From positions 1-40,638 of the forward strand of contig JAPPKM010000191.1 of the NCBI GenBank assembly GCA_028874315.1: a DNA stretch of 40,638 nt. Reading direction: 5' to 3'. How positions within the stretch are numbered: position 1 is the first letter of the stretch; every line of letters starts with the position of its first letter. The translations under genes were made by a program, and so were the position numbers. The stretch is from Chloroflexota bacterium. Lineage in GTDB: Bacteria; Chloroflexota; UBA11872. The notes below the pieces were generated by a model that had not been told where the DNA came from, did not search any database, and was given only the letters and a program-made list of their open reading frames with translations. Below are positions 2,161 to 30,125 of the stretch, piece after piece.

Positions 2161-3660
2161 TCAGCGGTTGTCGTAACCCGACGCGGCCAGGATCTCGCGA
2201 GCGACCCCGGCCTCGTCCCACGGCTGTTCGTGGTCCGCGAACTGCATCGACTGTTCGTGGCCCTTGCCGGCGAGCACCACAACGTCGCCCGCTCGGGCCA
2301 GTTCGAAGGCCCGTGCGATGGCCTTGCGCCGGTCGTGCACGACTTCAACGCGCGCGCCGCCACCGGTGGTCCCCGCCACCACTGCCCGCGCAATGTCCTC
2401 GGGACGTTCGCGTCGCGGATCCTCGTTGGTCACGATCGCCACATCCGCGCCCTGCGCCGCGGCGCGGCCGAGCATCGGGCGCTTCTCCGCGTCCTGGTTC
2501 CCGGCGCTGCCAAATACCACCAGCACGCGGCCCGGCGTTTCCGTCCGAACTTCGGCGAGGCAAGCGGCCAGCGAGGCGGGCGTGTGCGCGAAATCCACAA
2601 TCACCTGGAACGGCTGGCCCACCTGGACGGTTTCCATCCGACCCTTGACCGGCGCGAAGGTCGCCAGGCGGTCCACGCCCGCTGACACGTCGCCGACGAC
2701 GCTGCCCACGCAGGCCACGGCGGCCGCCACGTTGGCGACGTTCCAGCGCCCGCGCAGGCGCGTGGCCGCCTCCCAGGCGCCCCACGGCGACGTGCCGGCG
2801 ATCACCAGCCCGTCGGGCGTAACGCCAGCGCAGCGTGCCGACACGTCGGCCGGATTCGTTTCGCCGAAAGTCAGCACGTCGCTCGGGCATCCATCCGCGA
2901 AGCCGGCCGTTACCGGATCATCGGCGTTGAGCACGGCAACCTTCCCCCGCCCGTCGTCCGGACCCCGTGCCAGCAGGTCCAGCAACCGGCGCTTGGCCGC
3001 GCGGTAGGCCTTCAGCGTCCCGTGCAGATCCAGGTGCTCGTGCGTGACGTTGGTTATCACGGCCCGGTCGAACGCGAAGCCGTCCACGCGCGCCAGTTCG
3101 AGCGCGTGCGACGCGACCTCCACCACGGCCCACGCGTCGCCTTCCCTCACCATTCGGGCCAGGAGCCGGGCAACCACGGGCGCTTCCGGCGTGGTGAGCC
3201 GGCTCGACTTTTCAAGGTCCACACCGCCGGCGCGCCTATTGACGGTCGTAAGCTCGCCGACCCGATCAACGTACGCGCCCAGCATCCAGGCGATCAGCCT
3301 CGAGGTGCTGGTCTTGCCGTCGGTTCCGGTCACGCCCACCAGTCCCAGTTGACGGTCCGGCTCGCCCCAGAAGCGGCGGGACAGTGCGGCCAGCGCCAGG
3401 CGGCCGTCCGGCAAGATCGCCAGGCCGATGTCCGCGGGCGTCTCGACCGGACGTTCCGCCACGATTGCCGCCGCACCCGCGGCCAGGGCCGCGGGAACGT
3501 AAGCGTGGCCGTCAACCCGCAACCCGCGCCGGCACACGAAGCACGATCCAGGCTTCACGTCGCGGGAGTCATGCGCAATGTCACCGATCGCGGCGCTGGT
3601 CCCACGAACCAATTCCGCTCCGGCCAGCCCCTTGATCAACGCGTCAAACGATGGATGCAC
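2161..3660 (-). CDS. murE: UDP-MurNAc-tripeptide ligase MurE
   Basis: 499 residues, full length. It ligates the third stem-peptide residue to UDP-MurNAc-L-Ala-D-Glu in the cytoplasm. The ATP loop is GVTGTDGKTSTSR, followed by TTPEAP, EVASHALE (containing the carbamylated-lysine-region landmarks) and THEHLDLHG, all typical of Mur ligases. The C-terminal domain has VFGSAGNQDAEKRPMLGRAA. The amino-acid-specificity motif, DNPR in meso-diaminopimelate enzymes, reads EDPR (residues 413-416) in the context TNEDPRRERP. Arg416 is kept, but the Asn position is Asp and the preceding Asp is Glu. Meso-DAP is therefore likely but not certain, and ornithine or another diamino acid is possible. It is the last gene of the rsmI-murE operon, 12 bases after the FemABX gene. 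Confidence 0.95.
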   Translation of the reverse strand: MHPSFDALIKGLAGAELVRGTSAAIGDIAHDSRDVKPGSCFVCRRGLRVDGHAYVPAALAAGAAAIVAERPVETPADIGLAILPDGRLALAALSRRFWGEPDRQLGLVGVTGTDGKTSTSRLIAWMLGAYVDRVGELTTVNRRAGGVDLEKSSRLTTPEAPVVARLLARMVREGDAWAVVEVASHALELARVDGFAFDRAVITNVTHEHLDLHGTLKAYRAAKRRLLDLLARGPDDGRGKVAVLNADDPVTAGFADGCPSDVLTFGETNPADVSARCAGVTPDGLVIAGTSPWGAWEAATRLRGRWNVANVAAAVACVGSVVGDVSAGVDRLATFAPVKGRMETVQVGQPFQVIVDFAHTPASLAACLAEVRTETPGRVLVVFGSAGNQDAEKRPMLGRAAAQGADVAIVTNEDPRRERPEDIARAVVAGTTGGGARVEVVHDRRKAIARAFELARAGDVVVLAGKGHEQSMQFADHEQPWDEAGVAREILAASGYDNR

Positions 3661-3672
3661 GACGTCCGGCCT

Positions 3673-4710
3673 TTAGTTTTGCGGTCGACCGCGCCACCGC
3701 TGCACTGCCGCGCGCGCTCGCAACACGCCCGAGGTCAGCACCCAGGAGCGGATACGTTGCATTGGGAGGTCATAGGTACCCGGATAGTTCACCAGGCGAG
3801 GATTGAAGCCCAGCTTGAAGCGATGTACGCCGGACATCGGGTCGTCTGGATCGTCCGGATCGGCCATTCCCCACAGGTCATAGCGCCGGCAGCCGCGTGA
3901 CCGAGCCCACCGCATGGCCGCCCATTGCACGGCGTGCGGCGCCATCCGGCCCCGTTCGGCGTCGGACGACGCGCCGTACAGATACACCGCCTCCGGGCCG
4001 AAGGCCACGCTCAACAGCGCCGCCAGCGGCCGCCCCTCAAATCTCGCCACGAATAGCGCGGCATCATCGCCAAACGTGTGCGCCACGTCCCGGTAGTACG
4101 ACTTTGCATGCACCGCAAACCCCTGGCGTAGGGCGGTGGCCCTGGTCATTTCGTAGAAGTCGTCAAGGGCGGGCTCGCTGGCGCCGGTCTCAATACCGAC
4201 CCCGCGCCGAGCCGCCAGCCGGATGTTGTAGCGCATCTTGGATTTGAACGATGCCAACAGTTCCGCGTCATCTGCGGCCAGGTCCACGATCCCCGTCCGC
4301 GGAATCTGCACGAAGGCTTCGGTCGGGCGAAAGCCCCGCGCCTTGAGAATCGCCGCGTGCCTGGAACGCGCTGGTTCAACCCGCAGCAACGAAGCCCCAT
4401 GGCGCCGTGCTTCGTCGATCGACGCCTCGATGAGCGCCTGGGCGCCCGCGTCCGACTCCGCCAGCGGTCCGCGCGGCACGTAGGCCAGGCCGACTGAAGG
4501 CCCCAGCGGCGGCACTCGACGCGTTCGGATCAAGACCTGCACGCCTCCGCCGGGGGCGTCGGTGTCGCCGAGGGCCAGCCGCACGGCCCGCCAGCCGTAG
4601 CGCGACTTCAAGTCTCCCCAGGCCCCGGACTGCAGCAGGTTGGCGCCCGGGAACCCGGCCGCCAGCCGATTCCACTCGTGGACATGCGACACGCGCCGGA
4701 CGGCGTCCAT
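3673..4710 (-). CDS. FemABX-family peptidyltransferase
   Basis: 345 residues from ATG 4710, placed two bases after the ubiE stop codon. A longer reading to 4851 would run inside ubiE. It shows the FemABX double-GNAT pattern: an early NLLQSGAWGDLKSRYGW segment, then FKSKMRYNIRLAARRGVGIE in the middle (the family's arginine-rich conserved block), and a C-terminal half with YLYGASSD, AVQWAAMRWARSRGCRRYDLWGM and GVHRFKLGFN. Members transfer amino acids from aminoacyl-tRNA to peptidoglycan precursors to build interpeptide bridges; some distant members have other acceptors. Its position directly before murE supports a cell-wall role. No coiled-coil arm like that of staphylococcal FemA is seen. The donor amino acid cannot be predicted. 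Confidence 0.85.
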   Translation of the reverse strand: MDAVRRVSHVHEWNRLAAGFPGANLLQSGAWGDLKSRYGWRAVRLALGDTDAPGGGVQVLIRTRRVPPLGPSVGLAYVPRGPLAESDAGAQALIEASIDEARRHGASLLRVEPARSRHAAILKARGFRPTEAFVQIPRTGIVDLAADDAELLASFKSKMRYNIRLAARRGVGIETGASEPALDDFYEMTRATALRQGFAVHAKSYYRDVAHTFGDDAALFVARFEGRPLAALLSVAFGPEAVYLYGASSDAERGRMAPHAVQWAAMRWARSRGCRRYDLWGMADPDDPDDPMSGVHRFKLGFNPRLVNYPGTYDLPMQRIRSWVLTSGVLRARAAVQRWRGRPQN

Positions 4711-4712
4711 CG

Positions 4713-5420
4713 CTACGCCCGGGTCGCCGTGTGCAGGGCCACGCTGCCGAGTCCAAGTCGACGCACGCGCACGTCGGAAAACCCGGCCGCCGCGATCAAC
4801 CCGGCGAGGGCCTCCGCGCTCACGAACTCGTCCACCGACTGCGGCAGCCACGTATAGGCGCTGGCATGGCGACTTACCAGGCGTCCCAGCAACGGGACCC
4901 AGCGATTGAAGTACAGGCGAAAGAAGGGGCGCAATAGCCGGCGGCGCATGGGCGTCATTTCCAGGATCACCAGCCGGCCGCCGGGCCGCAGCACCCGCGC
5001 CATGGCCGCAAAGACCTCCGGCAGCCCATCAACATTCCGCAGCAGGAATCCGCTCACCACGGCGTCCACGGATCCATCCGCCAGCGGCGGGTGCAACGCA
5101 TCGCCCATCACGAACCGTGCGCGCTCGCCGGCCGGGGCCGCCGCGGCGCGCTGCCTCGCGATGCTGAGCATGCCTCCAGCAAAATCCAGGCCGACGACCT
5201 CTGGCCCGCCGCCTCCGCCGCGCAGTATCGCCAGGGCCAGGTCGCCCGTCCCCGTGCCCATGTCCAGCACCACGCGCGGCTCATCCGCCAGCGCCTCGCG
5301 CACCGCGCGTCGACGCCAGCCGTGATGCATCCCGAAGCTCATCAGGAAGTTGAGCAGGTCATAGCGAGGCGCGATCGCCTCAAACATCGGCCGCACCCAG
5401 GGGGCCTTGCGCTCAGGCAC
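4713..5420 (-). CDS. ubiE: Demethylmenaquinone/ubiquinone C-methyltransferase
   Basis: 235 residues from GTG 5420 (VPERKAPWVRPMF...). The frame stays open to 5810, but that upstream part overlaps the polyprenyl synthase and is Gly/Arg-rich noise. The family opening motif MFEAIAPRYDLLN is followed by the SAM-binding motif VLDMGTGTGDLALAIL, GLDFAGGMLSIAR, and the hallmark FLLRNVDGLPEVFAAMARVLRPGGRLVILEMTP. It performs the last C-methylation of menaquinone (or ubiquinone) head groups at the membrane surface. The polyprenyl diphosphate synthase immediately upstream would supply the side chain, so the pair points to menaquinone synthesis. The stop is two bases from the next start, which suggests translational coupling. 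Confidence 0.93.
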   Translation of the reverse strand: MPERKAPWVRPMFEAIAPRYDLLNFLMSFGMHHGWRRRAVREALADEPRVVLDMGTGTGDLALAILRGGGGGPEVVGLDFAGGMLSIARQRAAAAPAGERARFVMGDALHPPLADGSVDAVVSGFLLRNVDGLPEVFAAMARVLRPGGRLVILEMTPMRRRLLRPFFRLYFNRWVPLLGRLVSRHASAYTWLPQSVDEFVSAEALAGLIAAAGFSDVRVRRLGLGSVALHTATRA

Positions 5421-5437
5421 GGCGGCCGCCGGCGGAC

Positions 5438-6448
5438 CTAGGAATGCCGATCCGTCGCGTACGTGACGAGATCGGCCAGGGCATCGAATCCCGGATGGGC
5501 CGGCAGGCGCCCCAGGGCCGAGCGCGCCTGGTCGGCAAACCCCTCGGCGGCCGCGCGCGCCGCGTCCACGGCGCCCGAATCCCGCAATGTGGCGATGGCC
5601 TCCTCGGACTCGGCCTCCGACAGGCCTTCGCCCTCGGCCAGCCGCCGCATCACCGGCGTTGGCCGGTCGGCCGCATCCAAGTATTCGACTACCGGCAGGG
5701 TCAGCAACCCGGCCCGCAGATCGCCGCCCACCGGCTTGCCGGTCTCCTGGGATACGCCCGCAATGTCCAGCACGTCGTCCGTGACTTGAAAGGCCATGCC
5801 CAGCGACCACCCGAAGTCGTGCAGCGCCTGCGCCTCGTCATCCCGCGCGTCGGCGAGCACCCCGGTCGCGTCGCAGGCCAGGGCGATCAGCGCCGCGGTC
5901 TTGCCGCTGATTTTCTCCAGGTACTGCCGCCGCGTCGCATCGGGATCGCCGTTGAAACTCGGGAACACGAACTCGCTGCGCGACATCACATGAATCGTGT
6001 CGGCGAATTGCCGCACGATTTTGGGGCGGTTCAGCCGGGCCACCAGGTCCGCCGCGCTGGCAAAGAGATAGTCGCCGGCCAGGACGGCGACCTTGGCGGA
6101 CCAGGCCGCGTGCACCGATGGCTGCCCGCGTCGCGAGTCCGCTTCATCCACGATGTCGTCGTGAACCAGCGTGGCGCTGTGCAGAACCTCGGTACCCGCC
6201 GCGAGCAGCACGACTTCCGCCTGATCAACGCCATAGGCCTGCCCGATCAAGAGCGCGATGGCCGGGCGCAGGCGCTTGCCTTGGCCACCCAGCACCGACG
6301 CCAGCACGGTCTGCAGCAGTGGGAGTTGGCTGTCCGCCACGCAGCGGTCCAACTCCGCCTCGACTTGTGCCTGCCCCATCTGTACCGGGGCCAGGATTTG
6401 CGAAAGGTCGCGCGGCTGCCGCCGACCCGTCACGGCGTGGGAGCGCAC
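5438..6448 (-). CDS. Long-chain trans-polyprenyl diphosphate synthase
   Basis: 336 residues. Trans-prenyltransferase motifs are intact: GGQGKRLRPAI, the first aspartate-rich motif DDIVD (97-101) in LVHDDIVDEADSRRG, GDYLF, and the second motif DDVLD in FQVTDDVLDIAG with following GKPVGGDLRAG. The enzyme elongates an allylic primer with isopentenyl diphosphate, using Mg2+ held by the two Asp motifs. The product probably is the heptaprenyl-to-decaprenyl tail of menaquinone, given ubiE next door; chain length cannot be read with confidence. The start is GTG 6448, with GAGAG about eight bases upstream. An alternative GTG at 6433 overlaps the tatD stop as GTGA. Either choice gives an overlap with tatD. 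Confidence 0.92.
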   Translation of the reverse strand: MRSHAVTGRRQPRDLSQILAPVQMGQAQVEAELDRCVADSQLPLLQTVLASVLGGQGKRLRPAIALLIGQAYGVDQAEVVLLAAGTEVLHSATLVHDDIVDEADSRRGQPSVHAAWSAKVAVLAGDYLFASAADLVARLNRPKIVRQFADTIHVMSRSEFVFPSFNGDPDATRRQYLEKISGKTAALIALACDATGVLADARDDEAQALHDFGWSLGMAFQVTDDVLDIAGVSQETGKPVGGDLRAGLLTLPVVEYLDAADRPTPVMRRLAEGEGLSEAESEEAIATLRDSGAVDAARAAAEGFADQARSALGRLPAHPGFDALADLVTYATDRHS

Positions 6449-7200
6449 CGAAAAAGCTCTCGTGCGTTTCGCGTCGTGGTTGCGCGCAGCGAGGATACCG
6501 AGACATTTCGCACCGACGCGACCACGGCCGCCGTATGCGTCAGGTAAGCCGGCTCGTTGCGGCGCCCACGCATCGGCGTGGGCGCCAGATAGGGTGCGTC
6601 CGTCTCGATGAGCAGCCGATCGCCGGGAATGGCCGCCGCCGTCTCCCGCACCTCGTCCGCCCGCTTGAACGTGACGATGCCGGAGATCGAGATGTGCAGG
6701 CCCAGGTCCACGAACCGCGGCACGGACGCCGGCGGTCCCGTAAAGCTGTGCATCACCCCGCCGGCGGCCCCCAGCTCCTCCCGCAGCACGCCTTCCACCG
6801 CGTCCAGGCTGTCGCGCTGATGGATCACGATCGGCAGATCCAGATCGGCGGCCAGCCGGCAGTGGGCGCGGAACGCAAGCTCCTGAAGCTCTCGCGGCTG
6901 ATGGTCGCGGTAGAAATCCAGGCCGCTTTCGCCAATGGCCCGCACGCCGCGGTTGCCGGCCAGCTTGCGGAGCGCATCGACCGTCGTCGTGTCGAAGCCT
7001 CCGCAGTCATGCGGATGCACGCCAACCGTGGCGTACCAGCCAGGAAAGTCCTGGCTCATGGCGATCGCCCGCGCGCTGGTAGGCAGGTCGGTCGCCACCA
7101 CCAACGCCTCGTCCACCCCGTTGGCTGCGGCGCGCTGGCGCACGCCGTCGAGGTCGCCGGCGAACCCCGGATCGGCGAGATGCGCGTGACTGTCGAACAG
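6430..7200 (-). CDS. tatD: TatD-family metal-dependent DNase, probable CTG start
   Basis: 256 residues if it starts at CTG 7200-7198; a canonical GTG is found only at 7143 and would remove the first metal-binding motif. The upstream reading gives LFDSHAHLADPGF, the expected opening of TatD proteins (HxH at residues 5 and 7). Further metal ligands follow: ESGLDFYR, VIHQRDS, GVMHSFTG and LIETDAPYLAP. All five positions are intact. TatD proteins are TIM-barrel metalloenzymes with 3'-5' exonuclease or deoxyribonuclease activity in the cytoplasm. metG stops at 7206, five bases before the proposed start, and the clustering of metG with tatD is common in bacteria. Function is well supported; the start codon is the uncertain part. 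Confidence 0.9.
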   Translation of the reverse strand: MFDSHAHLADPGFAGDLDGVRQRAAANGVDEALVVATDLPTSARAIAMSQDFPGWYATVGVHPHDCGGFDTTTVDALRKLAGNRGVRAIGESGLDFYRDHQPRELQELAFRAHCRLAADLDLPIVIHQRDSLDAVEGVLREELGAAGGVMHSFTGPPASVPRFVDLGLHISISGIVTFKRADEVRETAAAIPGDRLLIETDAPYLAPTPMRGRRNEPAYLTHTAAVVASVRNVSVSSLRATTTRNARELFRCAPTP

Positions 7201-7205
7201 GCGGA

Positions 7206-8729
7206 CTATCCGTCCAGGCGGGGGAACAGGGGCGGACCGCCGGGGACGTCCTGGCCGGCCCGGATCGCGCTGGCGTCAGCGCCCCATGCCGCCGACCGCC
7301 CGGCGATTCCCAGTTGGGCCTCGATCCGATCGGAGGTTTCCGGCATCGCGGGACGGATCATCGTTGCGATCCGCGGCAGTGCGTCCATGAGCGTAGCCAG
7401 CACCGTTTGCAAGCGCGGGCGCTGGTCGTCGTCGCGCGCCAGCCGCCAGGGCTCCGTCCGTTCGATGTACTGATTGACCGCGGTGATGTAGCGCCACACG
7501 GCGGCCAGGGCCAGGTGGAATCGCCAGCTCTCAAACTGATGGGCGGCCAGTTCCCAGGCCGTTTGCTCGGCGCCACGCAGCTCTGATTCCTGGGTCGTCA
7601 GGTCGGCGACTTCAGGCACGACCCCGCCAAAGTAGCGGTGCAACATGGACGTGCTGCGCAGCACCAGGTTGCCCAGGTCGTTGCCCAGGTCGTGCTGGTA
7701 GCGACGCGCCATGCCTTCCCAGGTGAAGTCGCCGTCGCGCTCGAAGGCGACCTCGCGCAGCAGGAAGTAGCGCAGCGCGTCGGTGCCAAACCGTTCGACA
7801 ACCTCGGCCGGGCGGACCACGTGGCCGCCGCTCTGGCTCAACTCCTCGCCGGCGAAGTTCACCCACCCATGCACGCAGACCTGCCGGGGAATCTCGATCC
7901 CCGCCGCCATGAGCATGGCGGGCCAGTAGATCGCGTGAAAGCGCACGATGTCCTTGCCGACCACATGCACGTCCGCCGGCCAGCGCTGCTCGAAGAGGTC
8001 GTCCCCACCGGGCTGCCCGAAGCCGATTCCGGTGATGTAGTTGATTAGCGCGTCGAACCAGACGTAGATCACGTGGGTGGGATCGTTCGGCAACGGCAGT
8101 CCCCACCCACCGGTGGCTCGCGAGATGCTGAAGTCCTTCAGGCCCTGGCGCAGGAATCCCAACATCTCGTTCCGCCGCGATTCGGGCCAGACGAAGTCCG
8201 GGCGCTGCTCATAGAGCTCCAGCAGCGGCTCCTGGTAGCGCGACAGGGCGAAAAAGTAGTTGTCCTCTTCCAACCACTCCGGCGGCACGCGATGGGTTGG
8301 GCAGCAGTTGTCGACAAGCTCCTCGTCACCGTAGAACGCCTCGCAGCGAACGCAATACCAGCCCTCGTAGCGCCCTTTGTAGATGTCGCCGTTCTCGTAC
8401 ACCCGGTTGTAGAAGGCGCGAACCGTCTCCAGATGCCGTGGGTCGGTGGTGCGCACGAAGTCATCAAACTCCACGCCCACCAGATCCCAGGCGGTCTGGA
8501 AGAGCACGGCGGCCCGGTCGACATAGGTCTGCGTGTCGATGCCCTCATCGCGAGCCGAGCGGCTGACGCGCTGGCTGTTTTCGTCCAGTCCGCCCAAAAA
8601 AAACACGTCCTGGCCACGCAGGCGCCGATAGCGGGCCATGGCGTCGGCCGTGATCATCTCGAACGAGTGACCCACATGCGGCTCGCCGCTGGGATACGGG
8701 ATGGACGTGGTCAGGTAGTAGCGGGACAC
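7206..8729 (-). CDS. metG: Methionyl-tRNA synthetase with degenerate KMSKS motif
   Basis: 507 residues, a short MetRS without the C-terminal dimerisation domain. It charges tRNA-Met in the cytoplasm. The HIGH motif is HVGH (18-21) in SGEPHVGHSFE. The inserted knuckle has WYCVRCEAFY and NCCPTH, in line with one-zinc MetRS. The stretch EWLEEDNYFFALSRYQ and the anticodon-binding region WRLARDD are typical. The KMSKS loop, however, reads ELSQS (296-300) in GEELSQSGGHVVRP, losing both lysines; the coding bases at 7830-7844 are unambiguous. The rest is well conserved, so the gene does not look like a pseudogene. It sits 36 bases after rsmI in the operon, with tatD closely following. Either catalysis here is unusual or a second MetRS exists elsewhere. 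Confidence 0.93.
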   Translation of the reverse strand: MSRYYLTTSIPYPSGEPHVGHSFEMITADAMARYRRLRGQDVFFLGGLDENSQRVSRSARDEGIDTQTYVDRAAVLFQTAWDLVGVEFDDFVRTTDPRHLETVRAFYNRVYENGDIYKGRYEGWYCVRCEAFYGDEELVDNCCPTHRVPPEWLEEDNYFFALSRYQEPLLELYEQRPDFVWPESRRNEMLGFLRQGLKDFSISRATGGWGLPLPNDPTHVIYVWFDALINYITGIGFGQPGGDDLFEQRWPADVHVVGKDIVRFHAIYWPAMLMAAGIEIPRQVCVHGWVNFAGEELSQSGGHVVRPAEVVERFGTDALRYFLLREVAFERDGDFTWEGMARRYQHDLGNDLGNLVLRSTSMLHRYFGGVVPEVADLTTQESELRGAEQTAWELAAHQFESWRFHLALAAVWRYITAVNQYIERTEPWRLARDDDQRPRLQTVLATLMDALPRIATMIRPAMPETSDRIEAQLGIAGRSAAWGADASAIRAGQDVPGGPPLFPRLDG

Positions 8730-25777: not shown

Positions 25778-26107
25778 CGACCGCGCACCACACACCTGAG
25801 AGGTTTCAGAACTAGGGACGCGAACCGACTCGGACTCCAGGCACTCTGCAAATCCGCAAGGCCGCCACAGCCGAGCAGATCTCAGCGCCCAACCAGCGGC
25901 GCGAACCGCTTATCCCTCAAGCCCCACGACCACGCCTCGACTCGCACCGCGGCAATGCTGGGGAACCTCTTGCCATTGGTGCACTGCGTCTTCGGCCGGC
26001 AGTACACCCTCCAGTCAGGCGACTTGGTTTCTACAAACCTTGGGGCTAGTGTGAGACGTACAGGTAGCATGCGACTTATCGATAGTAGAACTCGACTGGG
26101 TTGAGTA
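25778..26107. other. Intergenic region before the propeller-lipoprotein array
   Basis: About 330 bases with no supported gene. A minus-strand open frame (25882-26190) has some coding-like character in its C-terminal 45 residues (SPDWRVYC..., WSWGLRDKRF) but no start signal and no recognisable family. The second half is more AT-rich than its surroundings and may contain the promoter of the lipoprotein array. Confidence 0.4.
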
Positions 26108-26233
26108 GTGTGCGGGCCACGGTCTTGTGACTCTGGCGCCAGGCGAGCTACGCGCAAGGTAGTAGATGCTTCGCCGAATCCCCTGGACATCCTGGCGATA
26201 CACGCGCTGTTCCAGCAGGAATCGAGCGGTTGA
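26108..26233 (+). CDS. Mini-ORF 1, coupled to the first propeller lipoprotein
   Basis: 41 codons from GTG 26108 to TGA 26231-26233. The C terminus DILAIHALFQQESSG matches that of the 60-residue mini-ORF before the second lipoprotein (DVMAIYALYQQESGA), and in both cases the stop overlaps the start of the following gene (TTGA here). The N-terminal half does not match, so the true start may lie elsewhere or the 5' part may be decayed. No function is known. The conserved tail and overlap suggest translation of the mini-ORF drives that of the lipoprotein. Confidence 0.45.
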   Translation: MCGPRSCDSGARRATRKVVDASPNPLDILAIHALFQQESSG

Positions 26234-28098
26234 GCGTGACTTGGTTGCGTCGCGTTGCGTCCATTGTCGCGGTGATTGGTTGTGTCTTCGTTTCAGGTTG
26301 TGAGGAGCAGACTCCGTCACCTGGCGAGGCGTTGAAGTCTCCGACGCCTGTGTGGGAGGTCTTTGAGGGCGGCGGCTCTGTGTGCGGGCCATTCGTCAGT
26401 CGGCACCACGACATCCCACCGCACTTCGTGAGTTGGAGCCCGAATAGCACGCACCTCATCTTTGACGATGACACATCGGTACGGGTGGTAGTCCTCAGGG
26501 GAACGCGGCTGCGGCAGATCGTCGACGCGAATCCGGGCTACCGATTCCGTGACGGGATTGGCCCGTCCGCGCAGTTTTCGCCGGACGGCCAAGCCATCGT
26601 CTATGCCAGCTGCGAATTCACGACCGGAGGCGGATATCTGGCACGGAACCCGCGCGCGTTCTACAAATTCGAGATCGTGACGGTGCGTGTGGACGGGACG
26701 GGCACGCAGCGGCGCACGACTAACCGGCACTTCGATCACCTGCCGGCGTGGTCGCCCGACGGCCACCGTATCGCGTACTTGTCGGCCGGGAGCCCGCACA
26801 GCGATTGGGGGACGGACGAATTGCGCGTCCTCACGGCGGCTGCGGCGGATGCCGAGCCCGAAACGCTTGCACGTGACTTGGGGGGCACGGCGCCCCCCCA
26901 GTGGGCACCGGACGGAACGCAGCTGGCGGTCTTGAGACTGGGCCGCGACCTCCAACTCGGCGACACCTACGCCACGGAAGAAGTAGGCGACATGACTGCG
27001 GCGTCCGATGCCTCCCCGACACGCGACCGGGCTCAACTCGGCGATGCGTACGCCAGGGAGATGGGCGTCGTGATCGTGGCGTCCGATGGCTCCGCGACGC
27101 GCGCTGTGGCGCGCACGGTGAGCACGGTCTCCTGGTCGCCGGACGGCCAGCGCCTGGCGTTGGCGCGGCTGCAGGGGAACGCCGTGCAGTTGGTGACGAT
27201 CGCGCCCGATGGGTCCGATGTCCAGGTCATCCGGCAACTGACCGATCGGGCCGGCCTGGCGGCGTACGTCGATGTCCAGCACTCCATCTATAACGCCCCG
27301 CTGCTCCACGTGGCCTGGTCGCCGGACGGCGCGCACCTCCTGTATTCGTGTGACCAGCAGTTTTGCGTGGTGAACCTGGACGGCGAGATCGTGGGACGGA
27401 CGCCGGAGGAGTTCGCCAACGAGCGAGGACGGGCGGCGGCCGCCTGGGCGCCGGATGGATCACGGATCGCAGTGCGGGCGGCGGGCAACCCGACGCCCAA
27501 CGGCGCGGTGGTGCTCTACACCATGGCGCCGGACGGCTCGGACGTGCTGGTGCTGGTGCGCGGCGGACTGGCGATGGTGGCGGAGCACTCGGGCTACCAG
27601 GACGCCGAGGTTGGCAAGGCGGCCTGCCGCGAGGGATACGTGGTACCCGACCCGGCGAGTAACCCCGGGCTGGTGGCGGACTGCGAGACACTGATGGCGC
27701 TGCGGGACGCGCTGGCCGGCCAGACGCTTCTGAACTGGGGCGCGGGGACGCCGCTCAACCAATGGGCGGGAATCCAGATCAGCGGCGAGCCGCGGCGGGT
27801 GACGGGGCTGAAGTTCCAGTACGCGCAGGGGGTGCACTGGCACGAGAGCCACCGGCTGGTGTTCGGCCGGTTAGCGCCGGAGATCGGCAACCTGGACCAG
27901 TTGCAGACCTTGGATCTGTGCTGCAACAAGCTCCTGGGCACCTTCCCACCAGAGCTTGAGAGTTTGCAGCATCTGCGCGAACTGAATCTGCAGCTCCACG
28001 GCGGCGCCCGGCTGGACGGCTGCCTGAGCGCCGGCTTTGTGGAACAGCTGGAGGTCGCCGAGGGTCTGCGAGTCTGCGGGCAGGACGGTGGCGCATGA
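26230..28098 (+). CDS. TolB-like beta-propeller lipoprotein with plant-type LRR tail (copy 1)
   Basis: 622 residues from TTG 26230 (GTG 26236 is an alternative). The signal sequence ends in the lipobox VSGC, so the protein is probably lipid-anchored outside the cytoplasm. Seven PD40/WD40-like SPDG repeats follow, such as WSPDGHRIAYLS, WSPDGQRLALAR and WSPDGAHLLYSC, enough for one seven-bladed propeller. Residues ~450-620 change character: DCETLMALRDALAG, NWGAGTPLNQWAG, RRVTGL, then LAPEIGNLDQLQTLDL and FPPELESLQHLRELNL. That is the layout of an LRR cap plus LRRs as in plant receptor kinases. The propeller and LRRs are protein-binding folds, so a surface recognition role is likely. The stop overlaps the next start as ATGA. 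Confidence 0.8.
   Translation: MSVTWLRRVASIVAVIGCVFVSGCEEQTPSPGEALKSPTPVWEVFEGGGSVCGPFVSRHHDIPPHFVSWSPNSTHLIFDDDTSVRVVVLRGTRLRQIVDANPGYRFRDGIGPSAQFSPDGQAIVYASCEFTTGGGYLARNPRAFYKFEIVTVRVDGTGTQRRTTNRHFDHLPAWSPDGHRIAYLSAGSPHSDWGTDELRVLTAAAADAEPETLARDLGGTAPPQWAPDGTQLAVLRLGRDLQLGDTYATEEVGDMTAASDASPTRDRAQLGDAYAREMGVVIVASDGSATRAVARTVSTVSWSPDGQRLALARLQGNAVQLVTIAPDGSDVQVIRQLTDRAGLAAYVDVQHSIYNAPLLHVAWSPDGAHLLYSCDQQFCVVNLDGEIVGRTPEEFANERGRAAAAWAPDGSRIAVRAAGNPTPNGAVVLYTMAPDGSDVLVLVRGGLAMVAEHSGYQDAEVGKAACREGYVVPDPASNPGLVADCETLMALRDALAGQTLLNWGAGTPLNQWAGIQISGEPRRVTGLKFQYAQGVHWHESHRLVFGRLAPEIGNLDQLQTLDLCCNKLLGTFPPELESLQHLRELNLQLHGGARLDGCLSAGFVEQLEVAEGLRVCGQDGGA
26953..27114 (+). repeat. 81-base in-frame tandem duplication inside copy 1
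   Basis: Two units at 26953-27033 and 27034-27114, each beginning CAACTCGGCGA and encoding 27 residues. They start QLGDTYATEEVGDM and QLGDAYAREMGVVI and both end in ASD(A/G)S(P/A)TR plus four residues. The paralogue downstream has only one equivalent unit, so the duplication happened in copy 1 and the units have since diverged. Confidence 0.7.
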
Positions 28099-28277
28099 GG
28101 CGTTCACGCCCACCAGACCGCGGCACTGAAGCCACGCTCTGGGCTGAGATGCGCGCCATAGCCGCGCTCAGGAAGGGCCTTTTGGATGGCGCTTTGCCGA
28201 ACGACCCCGACTGTTCACCGCATTCCCGTGACGTGATGGCGATCTACGCGCTGTACCAGCAGGAATCGGGCGCGTGA
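28095..28277 (+). CDS. Mini-ORF 2 between the two propeller lipoproteins
   Basis: 60 residues. ATG 28095 overlaps the stop of copy 1 (ATGA), and its own TGA overlaps the GTG start of copy 2 (GTGA). It reads WAEMRAIAALRKGLLDG then DVMAIYALYQQESGA: short, charged helices with no signal peptide, cysteine or membrane segment. The last 15 residues match mini-ORF 1. It may be a small cytoplasmic partner, or its translation may simply reload ribosomes for the lipoprotein. I do not recognise the family. Confidence 0.6.
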   Translation: MRRSRPPDRGTEATLWAEMRAIAALRKGLLDGALPNDPDCSPHSRDVMAIYALYQQESGA

Positions 28278-29722
28278 ACGCCAGCTGGCTGCGACGAGGC
28301 CCGTGGCTCGCCGTGCTGCTTGGATTCGCCGTGTTCGCCAGCTGCGGACCGACCGACGAGTCCGCGGGTTGCCGCTGCATCAGCGATGCGTGCAAGTCGA
28401 TCGCCGGCTGCAGACCGACCGATGAAGGTGGAAAGACTCACGTTGAAGACGAATCTATGGACGAGGCGAAGACCGAAGGCGCGAAAGATCAGACCGATGA
28501 AGAGCGAATTTCGTCGTTGGAGCCCAACACCGTTTCCGGATTCGCCTGCGGACCAGGCGGACTAAGCGCCGGCTCGCAGGCTCCGGTATATCCACCGCCG
28601 CACTTCGTCGACTGGAGTCCGGACGGCCTGCACCTTGTTTTCGACGATGTCACATCGGTGCGGCTGGTGGACGTGCAAGGGACATGGCTTCGCCAGGTTG
28701 TGGACGCGTATCCCGGGCGCCAATTCCCCGACTCCGTAGGTCTGCAGGCCGCGCTATCGCCCGACGGTCGACAAGTCGTCTATACCACCTGCGAGTACCC
28801 ATCCAATGGGCTGAGGGCGGCTCCGGACGCTCCATCGGCGGAGCGCGGGAACTATCACTTCGAACTCGCCACCGTGGCGCTGGATGGATCTTCGGCACGG
28901 CGGCTCACGACTAATAGCAAGTTCGGTCGCCACCCGGCATGGTCCCCGGATGGCCGCCGCATCGCGTATGTCGCAGACCCGGCCGCTCTTGTTTATCGGC
29001 AGCTCTTGACGCTCTCGGTCGAGAGCGATGGCATTGAGCCCCAAAGTCTTGGGGAGCGCCTGCTGTCTGTCGGCACAGCGCCGCAATGGTCGCCCGATGG
29101 TGCGCGTCTGGCCGTTCTGACGTACGGAAGCGAGGTCCAGGTGGACGGGGTCTTTGGCGACCTTCTGAACCTCGTCATCGTCCAATCTGACGGATCCGGG
29201 CAGCACACCATCGCTGAAGGCGTGGTCAGCGAGGCATCGTGGTCGCCGGACGGTCGGCGCCTCGCCGTGGCGCGGCTGCACGGGAACAACGTGCAGCTGG
29301 AGACGATCGCGCCCGACGGGTCGGATGCAGGCGTCATCAGGCGGCTAACCGATTGGGCGAGCGTGGCGACGGTTGCAGGATTCGTGCAAGTGGAGCCTTA
29401 CCTGAACCTCTCGTGGTCACCGGACGGTTCACGGATTCTCTATTCGTGTGGTCGCCAGTTCTGTGTGGCGGACCTGGATGGCGAGATCGTGGGACGGACG
29501 CCGGAGGAGTTCGCTACCGAGGGCGGCCGGTCCGCGGCGGCCTGGGCGCCGGACGGCTCGCGAATCGCAGTGCGGGTGCCCGGCGACCCGACGCCCAACG
29601 GCGAGGTGGCGCTCTACACCATGGCGCCGGACGGCTCGGACGTTCAGGTGCTCGTGCGCGGCGCTGGCGATGGAGGACTCGAGGCGGCGGGACGTGGAGG
29701 CGGAGAAGAACGGGTGCCGTAA
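28274..29722 (+). CDS. TolB-like propeller lipoprotein, copy 2, LRR tail lost
   Basis: 482 residues from GTG 28274. MNASWLRRG matches MSVTWLRRV of copy 1. The lipobox is VFASC. An acidic linker at about 35-80 contains a near-duplicate CGPTDE/CRPTDE element (28341 and 28407) absent from copy 1. Seven SPDG-type repeats then match copy 1 blade by blade, including DLDGEIVGRTPEEFA and AWAPDGSRIAVR. After DGSDVQVLVRG the frames diverge: the protein ends in a Gly-rich non-homologous tail (GLEAAGRGGGEERVP), while the LRR coding sequence continues in other frames downstream. The propeller should fold alone, so the gene may still be active without its LRR domain. Confidence 0.75.
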   Translation: MNASWLRRGPWLAVLLGFAVFASCGPTDESAGCRCISDACKSIAGCRPTDEGGKTHVEDESMDEAKTEGAKDQTDEERISSLEPNTVSGFACGPGGLSAGSQAPVYPPPHFVDWSPDGLHLVFDDVTSVRLVDVQGTWLRQVVDAYPGRQFPDSVGLQAALSPDGRQVVYTTCEYPSNGLRAAPDAPSAERGNYHFELATVALDGSSARRLTTNSKFGRHPAWSPDGRRIAYVADPAALVYRQLLTLSVESDGIEPQSLGERLLSVGTAPQWSPDGARLAVLTYGSEVQVDGVFGDLLNLVIVQSDGSGQHTIAEGVVSEASWSPDGRRLAVARLHGNNVQLETIAPDGSDAGVIRRLTDWASVATVAGFVQVEPYLNLSWSPDGSRILYSCGRQFCVADLDGEIVGRTPEEFATEGGRSAAAWAPDGSRIAVRVPGDPTPNGEVALYTMAPDGSDVQVLVRGAGDGGLEAAGRGGGEERVP

Positions 29723-29900
29723 GGGGCCACGAGGTGCCTGAGTAGAGCCGGGACTACAGTCCGTAGGGAACTGCGAGACGCCGATGGCGACGCGGACACG
29801 GCGGCGGGCCCGACGCTTCTGGGCCGGGGCGCCGAAAAGCCTCTGGACCAGCGGACAGTCGCGGCTTTGGCTGCAGCGACGTAGAGGTCGGACGCCTCCC
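29680..29900 (+). pseudogene. Decayed LRR tail of copy 2
   Basis: Base-level similarity to the copy 1 tail persists past the frameshift. One frame reads DVEAEKNGCRKGPRGA then stops, against DAEVGKAACREGYVVP in copy 1. Further on, AACTGCGAGACGCCGATGGCG matches GACTGCGAGACACTGATGGCG, and GACGCTTCTG and GGGGCGC blocks recur. Several indels and stops separate the blocks, so this stretch is no longer translated as LRR. Confidence 0.65.
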
Positions 29901-29924: not shown

Positions 29925-30125
29925 CTAGAACGTCTCGAACTCCAACGCCGACAGGTTCAGGTCCGAGGACCGCTTCGAGAGGTGCAGAAGTTCCACGCCG
30001 ACGACTTCTTTCGCCTCGTTGTAGTCCAGCACGACGCCGGGAGAAACTTCCTCGGACTCGACGATTTCCGAGTCATCCAGGCGCAGGTACAGCGCGTCGG
30101 CTTCCCGGTCCACGTTCAGCTTCAT
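29925..30125 (-). CDS. DUF2283 family small protein
   Basis: 66 residues. MKLNVDREADALYLRLDDSEIVESEEVSPGVVLDYNEAKEVVGVELLHLSKR is the complete DUF2283 pattern (DxEADALYxxL, then SEEV.PGVxLDY, then GxExLxxSKR), given here in full order and interrupted only by one insertion-free match. The family is small, cytoplasmic and of unknown function, and is often found next to DUF4258 proteins in toxin-antitoxin-like pairs. No DUF4258 gene is adjacent. A GAGGTGAGC stretch precedes the ATG. The gene follows the decayed LRR remnant on the opposite strand. Confidence 0.85.
   Translation of the reverse strand: MKLNVDREADALYLRLDDSEIVESEEVSPGVVLDYNEAKEVVGVELLHLSKRSSDLNLSALEFETF

Follow-up and report, generated by a model that had tools for sequence, protein, structure and literature searches.

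Introduction

Translation by termination-reinitiation has been described for genes joined by a stop/start overlap, in which restart needs no more than a short 3' part of the gene ahead (PMC10666635, PMC6728339). In E. coli reporter work, overlaps of the −4 and −1 type supported this process, and 15 nt of the upstream gene could suffice (PMC10666635). A short cis-acting ORF just upstream is also known from leader minigenes that boost the next gene, such as mg2 of axe-txe (PMC8708949). The locus analysed here shares the stop/start overlap with the former and the short upstream ORF with the latter. It differs from the termination-reinitiation pairs in that a truncated gene takes the upstream place, the truncation recurring in many loci and species, and from mg2, which is a two-codon ORF of unrelated origin, in that the short ORF is what is left of a protease gene and its tail is conserved.

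The parent protease resembles the matrixin-like metzincins (PF00413, MMPs, serralysin, archaemetzincin) in having HExGHxLG, a later His, a Met-turn and a C-terminal helix ending in ALYQ. Unlike these, it carries a variable insertion before the third His and FnIII repeats in front and stays below the Pfam cut-off, and the stubs studied here retain the last helix only. The lipoproteins encoded downstream share with PD40/TolB-like lipoproteins a seven-repeat propeller after the lipobox, but many add a C-terminal LRR domain and come after a metzincin, and they lie far under the TolB equivalog score. No description of the protease/lipoprotein gene pair was found in the literature searched.

Results

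The window, a stretch of 40,638 nucleotides from a Chloroflexota genome, contains four forward-strand frames at 26108-26233, 26230-28098, 28095-28277 and 28274-29722, chained by the overlaps TTGA, ATGA and GTGA as the initial annotation had described. All three junctions carry the conserved type of stop/start overlap of 4 nt. Mini-ORF 1 (26108..26233, 41 aa, GTG start) has syntenic orthologs in G006 (L050) and G012 (L046) and a related copy in G008 (L052). Its part homologous to a metzincin tail lies at about 26162-26227 and is preceded by unrelated leader sequence. Mini-ORF 2 (28095..28277, 60 aa) has an ATG start that overlaps the stop of lipoprotein 1 and consists of a front part of 33-34 codons (28095..28196) and a metzincin C-terminal tail of 26 codons, DPDCSPHSRDVMAIYALYQQESGA (28197..28274). 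All six members of the mini-ORF 2 family were exactly 60 codons long and kept the overlaps at both ends. A signal peptide or other export signal was not found in the window stubs, and the mini-ORFs had no Pfam match, which set aside a known small-protein family.

Lipoprotein 1 (26230..28098, 622 aa, TTG start) has a seven-blade PD40 propeller and a short LRR end. The GTG at 26236, right past the stop of mini-ORF 1, is an equally good start, and a paralog uses the aligned GTG. Lipoprotein 2 (28274..29722, 482 aa, GTG start) likewise has a seven-blade PD40 propeller. PD40 was significant in both (4e-17 and 9e-25), and both have a lipobox and seven SPDG-type repeats. The LRR end of lipoprotein 2 has been lost by a frameshift, and a remnant of the lost cap persists on the same strand at 29770..29817 (86% match to C159 11271-11319). 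A Shine-Dalgarno-like AGGA stands 9 nt ahead of each lipoprotein start, at 26217..26220 before the TTG and at 28261..28264 before the GTG; in the window family it lies inside the Q-E codons of the tail. A consensus scan for promoters and terminators gave nothing above chance. The non-coding stretch 25860-26105 before mini-ORF 1 showed strong conservation in G012, and its counterpart in G008 could be recognised; it is more conserved than the synonymous sites of the lipoprotein and is a possible control region. A DUF2283 gene adjoins the array on the minus strand (29925-30125, E=1e-16).

When the window's own genome was searched with mini-ORF 2, 16 places were returned, mostly the C-terminal ends of long frames. 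A profile made from eight intact protease domains, with the mini-ORFs left out, recovered both in a genome-wide search, mini-ORF 2 with E=8e-7 and mini-ORF 1 with E=0.006. The mini-ORFs align past the Met-turn, to CSPHPLDVLAIYALYQ, the last helix of the protease domain; the catalytic zinc site is absent from both, leaving the C-terminal tail only. By sequence homology both mini-ORFs are thus 3' stubs of a gene for a fibronectin-III plus matrixin-like metzincin protease. The C terminus that the two were proposed to share reflects real homology, as these E-values and the alignment of tail DNA to other copies rule out a chance resemblance, although in mini-ORF 1 it is limited to about the last 20 codons. 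The fronts are mutually unrelated and therefore point to two separate truncations. An origin of the tail in the lipoprotein LRR cap, superficially similar in the stretch DCETLMALRDAL, was rejected because full-length proteases revealed the true parent. The dedicated short partner first proposed gives way to a truncated protease 3' end, and elsewhere in this genome, as well as across the genus, the intact gene holds the same position immediately ahead of these lipoproteins.

Across 21 domains of the parent protease, the residues without variation include H217, E218, G220, H221, G224, H241 and C271-x-P-x-P-x-D with a closing Y. An HExxHxxGxxH zinc site is present, its third His at a variable distance, and is canonical in L014 (HESGHALGLWH). 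The Met-turn that follows is SVMxY in most members, with a few deviating, e.g. VFDH in L015. Matrixin was the commonest Pfam match (14 of the 21 domains at E<=0.1, best domain 6e-5); the curated cut-off of Peptidase_M10 was not reached, the best whole protein scoring 20.6 bits against 24. Top matches of a PDB profile search were MMPs, archaemetzincin, myroilysin and serralysin, at modest E-values of 0.005-0.04. A first structure model was too weak (pLDDT 57); with the second, whose pLDDT rose to 68, the top Foldseek matches were MMP catalytic domains at a non-significant E of about 0.06. The name matrixin-like metzincin is given by motif, as a putative assignment outside the curated family score.

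Other contigs of the window's genome hold intact protease/lipoprotein pairs. The array on C159 (L009) begins with a frame of FnIII and metzincin ending at 3575, joined by ATGA to a lipoprotein (3572-5494). A second ATGA leads to a 60-aa ORF (5491-5673), 71% identical to mini-ORF 2, and a GTGA to the lipoprotein at 5670-7268. After a further GTGA comes a 144-aa metzincin fragment, then a lipoprotein, a second 144-aa fragment and a last lipoprotein, each joined to the next by GTGA. Protease, 60-aa stub and both fragments each overlap the following lipoprotein by 4 nt.

The initial annotation had named the absence of such mini-ORFs before homologous lipoproteins of related genomes as counter-evidence, but short ORFs with the same C terminus do occur there. 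We collected 87 tail-bearing ORFs, of which 38 had the full protease domain, 14 were catalytic fragments and 35 had the tail only. These loci were selected by the tail and read in detail, and the counts therefore run from tail to lipoprotein. A PD40 gene came next in 76 of the 87 (35/38 full, 12/14 fragment and 29/35 tail-only copies), and 48 of these 76 had a −4 or −1 overlap (21/38, 10/14 and 17/35, respectively). Some PD40 lipoproteins were seen without any upstream tail, and several stubs elsewhere had no usable start (L162, L159). Within the class, 16 of 41 genomes carried the tail, and 400 genomes sampled evenly from the phylum had it nowhere outside this class; a separate scan of named genomes found it in Chloroflexi MAGs and in uncultured Dehalococcoidia/SAR202.

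On the closed Dehalococcoidia chromosome OY282355.1 the tail occurs four times, and a catalytic domain was not found at E<=0.01. At least three of the tails are in frame behind a signal peptide (65, 66 and 93 aa; signal peptides judged by eye). The fourth copy resembles the second signal-peptide copy. Overlapping PD40 genes come next to these tails. The microproteins at L201, L202 and L196 of this chromosome, 65-93 aa long, consist of signal peptide, linker and metzincin tail, the last of these often containing a C-x6-C pair. On OY282385.1 (L203 3048-7224), four tail-only plus PD40 units stand in tandem, with stubs that start near the Met-turn.

Tandem arrays in C159, L046, L050 and L158 bear out that whole units were duplicated with their coupling retained. 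In G400, a 1.2-kb copy (L197 4344-5562 against L199 8075-9290) is 95.4% identical and comprises the lipoprotein with just the final 71 nt of the protease, and therefore shows how stubs arise. It is a recent ectopic duplicate in which the key tail Cys has already changed to Arg. The window itself is a mosaic: 28195-29663 matches C159 3493-4961, an intact protease tail with its lipoprotein, at 90%, and 27130-28277 matches the 3' half of a C159 lipoprotein and the 60-aa ORF at 81%. The alignment places the crossover in the tail, where the distance between G001 and C159 was 0.08, compared with 0.40 in the front part. Near-identical tail-plus-lipoprotein units were also observed in two genomes (L153 4995-5219 and L155 4903-5126), each immediately after the 3' end of a tRNA gene, a different one in each genome (Ala-TGC and Met-CAT), as if brought by an integrating element.

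Both lipoproteins are constrained, with dN/dS of 0.27 and 0.25 against G006. A ratio near one in the mini-ORFs had been named as the outcome that would speak against a conserved short partner, and it was obtained in mini-ORF 1 (omega 0.72, p=0.38, indistinguishable from neutral) and in the front part of mini-ORF 2, while the tail of mini-ORF 2 was far below it. In neither mini-ORF did a ratio below one extend across the whole ORF. For six mini-ORF 2 sequences, omega was 0.82 in the front (p=0.46) and 0.175 in the 26-codon tail (p=4e-7); in a four-taxon clade the values were 0.91 and 0.178 (p=1e-4). The window-G006 pair gave 0.57 in the front (not significant) and 0.065 in the tail (p=0.006), the latter from 4 synonymous changes and 1 nonsynonymous. 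Because tails recombine with intact copies, this pair is the only clean comparison, and it is small; omega on the deep tree was not accepted as stand-alone proof of peptide selection. Nor was the open frame of the front part taken as proof of coding, since all six were open in 24-35% of neutral simulations. Pooled intact proteases gave an omega of 0.12 in the tail and 0.25 in the catalytic part, and the two C159 fragments gave 0.08 and 0.55.

Discussion

We consider it probable that an ancestral protease-lipoprotein operon lost its protease to tail stubs, which were kept as cis translational-coupling relays. The ancestor would have comprised two genes, for a secreted FnIII plus matrixin-like metzincin and then for a PD40(/LRR) lipoprotein whose start overlapped the protease stop. 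Such units would have been copied and recombined many times, and in some copies the protease would have been cut to its last 20-26 codons, as would be the case for both proteases of the window. We propose that the tail was retained because the lipoprotein, dependent for its translation on that 3' end, could not be moved without it. Ribosomes finishing the preceding frame would re-initiate on the stub, stop, and re-initiate on the lipoprotein, so that the stub would serve as a relay in cis, with no protease function. The tail and its stop/start hand-over are probably kept because the hand-over drives lipoprotein production; translation of the stubs, and re-initiation as the source of lipoprotein synthesis, are inferred here. 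At the overlaps with full proteases, a Shine-Dalgarno-like motif precedes the lipoprotein start in just 4 of 21 cases. Against the relay, mini-ORF 1 has no upstream gene feeding it and no clear start signal, its dN/dS does not differ from one, and some PD40 lipoproteins do without an upstream tail. Moreover, coupling needs only about 15 nt and therefore leaves a constraint over 26 codons unexplained.

The tail could also be a functional peptide. As part of the nascent chain it might adjust termination and restart from within the ribosome tunnel, and exported copies might dock onto the propeller lipoprotein. We regard this as possible on a tentative footing; it can be combined with the relay. 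Omega of 0.07-0.18 in the tail against 0.8-0.9 in front, and the difference within the C159 fragments, agree with it, as do the OY282355.1 tails that stand with a signal peptide beside PD40 genes and without a catalytic domain. An exported tail is not expected under pure coupling and therefore allows for an independent peptide role. However, the tails of intact proteases have an equally low omega, so conversion from them could mimic constraint on the tail, and a signal peptide is missing from the stubs of the window. With similar reserve, the 20-26-residue metzincin tail may be a selected enzyme-less peptide, acting as a nascent-chain restart element and, in one Dehalococcoidia lineage from which the enzyme has disappeared, as a signal-peptide microprotein paired with a propeller lipoprotein.

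The stubs might instead be inert remnants, the lipoproteins starting from their own Shine-Dalgarno-like site within the stub and recombination conserving the tail, which we think rather unlikely. The AGGA at good spacing ahead of both window lipoproteins means that these could possibly initiate alone; visible recombination in the tail (the G001-C159 distances and the 28195-29663 match), the neutral appearance of mini-ORF 1 and the stubs without a usable start fit inert remnants too. Inert remnants agree less well with the low omega of the window-G006 ortholog tail, or with six mini-ORF 2 copies all keeping length and both overlaps. The initial annotation had offered a translational regulator, a chaperone or an inhibitor of the lipoprotein, and a translational role in cis is the part that stands as the best reading. 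Overlapping gene pairs do frequently encode partners (PMC10666635), but the truncated-protease origin, the unrelated fronts of the copies and the neutral look of mini-ORF 1 make a dedicated chaperone or inhibitor very improbable, and for the window copies such a role is unlikely because the lipoprotein leaves the cytoplasm whereas these copies lack a signal for export.

A conserved short ORF upstream of a gene can be explained as a remnant held by translational coupling, which is a trap for small-protein discovery. For sponge-associated Chloroflexi specifically, LRR proteins have been proposed as mediators of host contact (PMC6306507). The family described here consists of expanded, recombining operons for a secreted protease and a propeller/LRR lipoprotein in uncultured Chloroflexi, and it provides a testable instance of a protease tail outlasting its enzyme.
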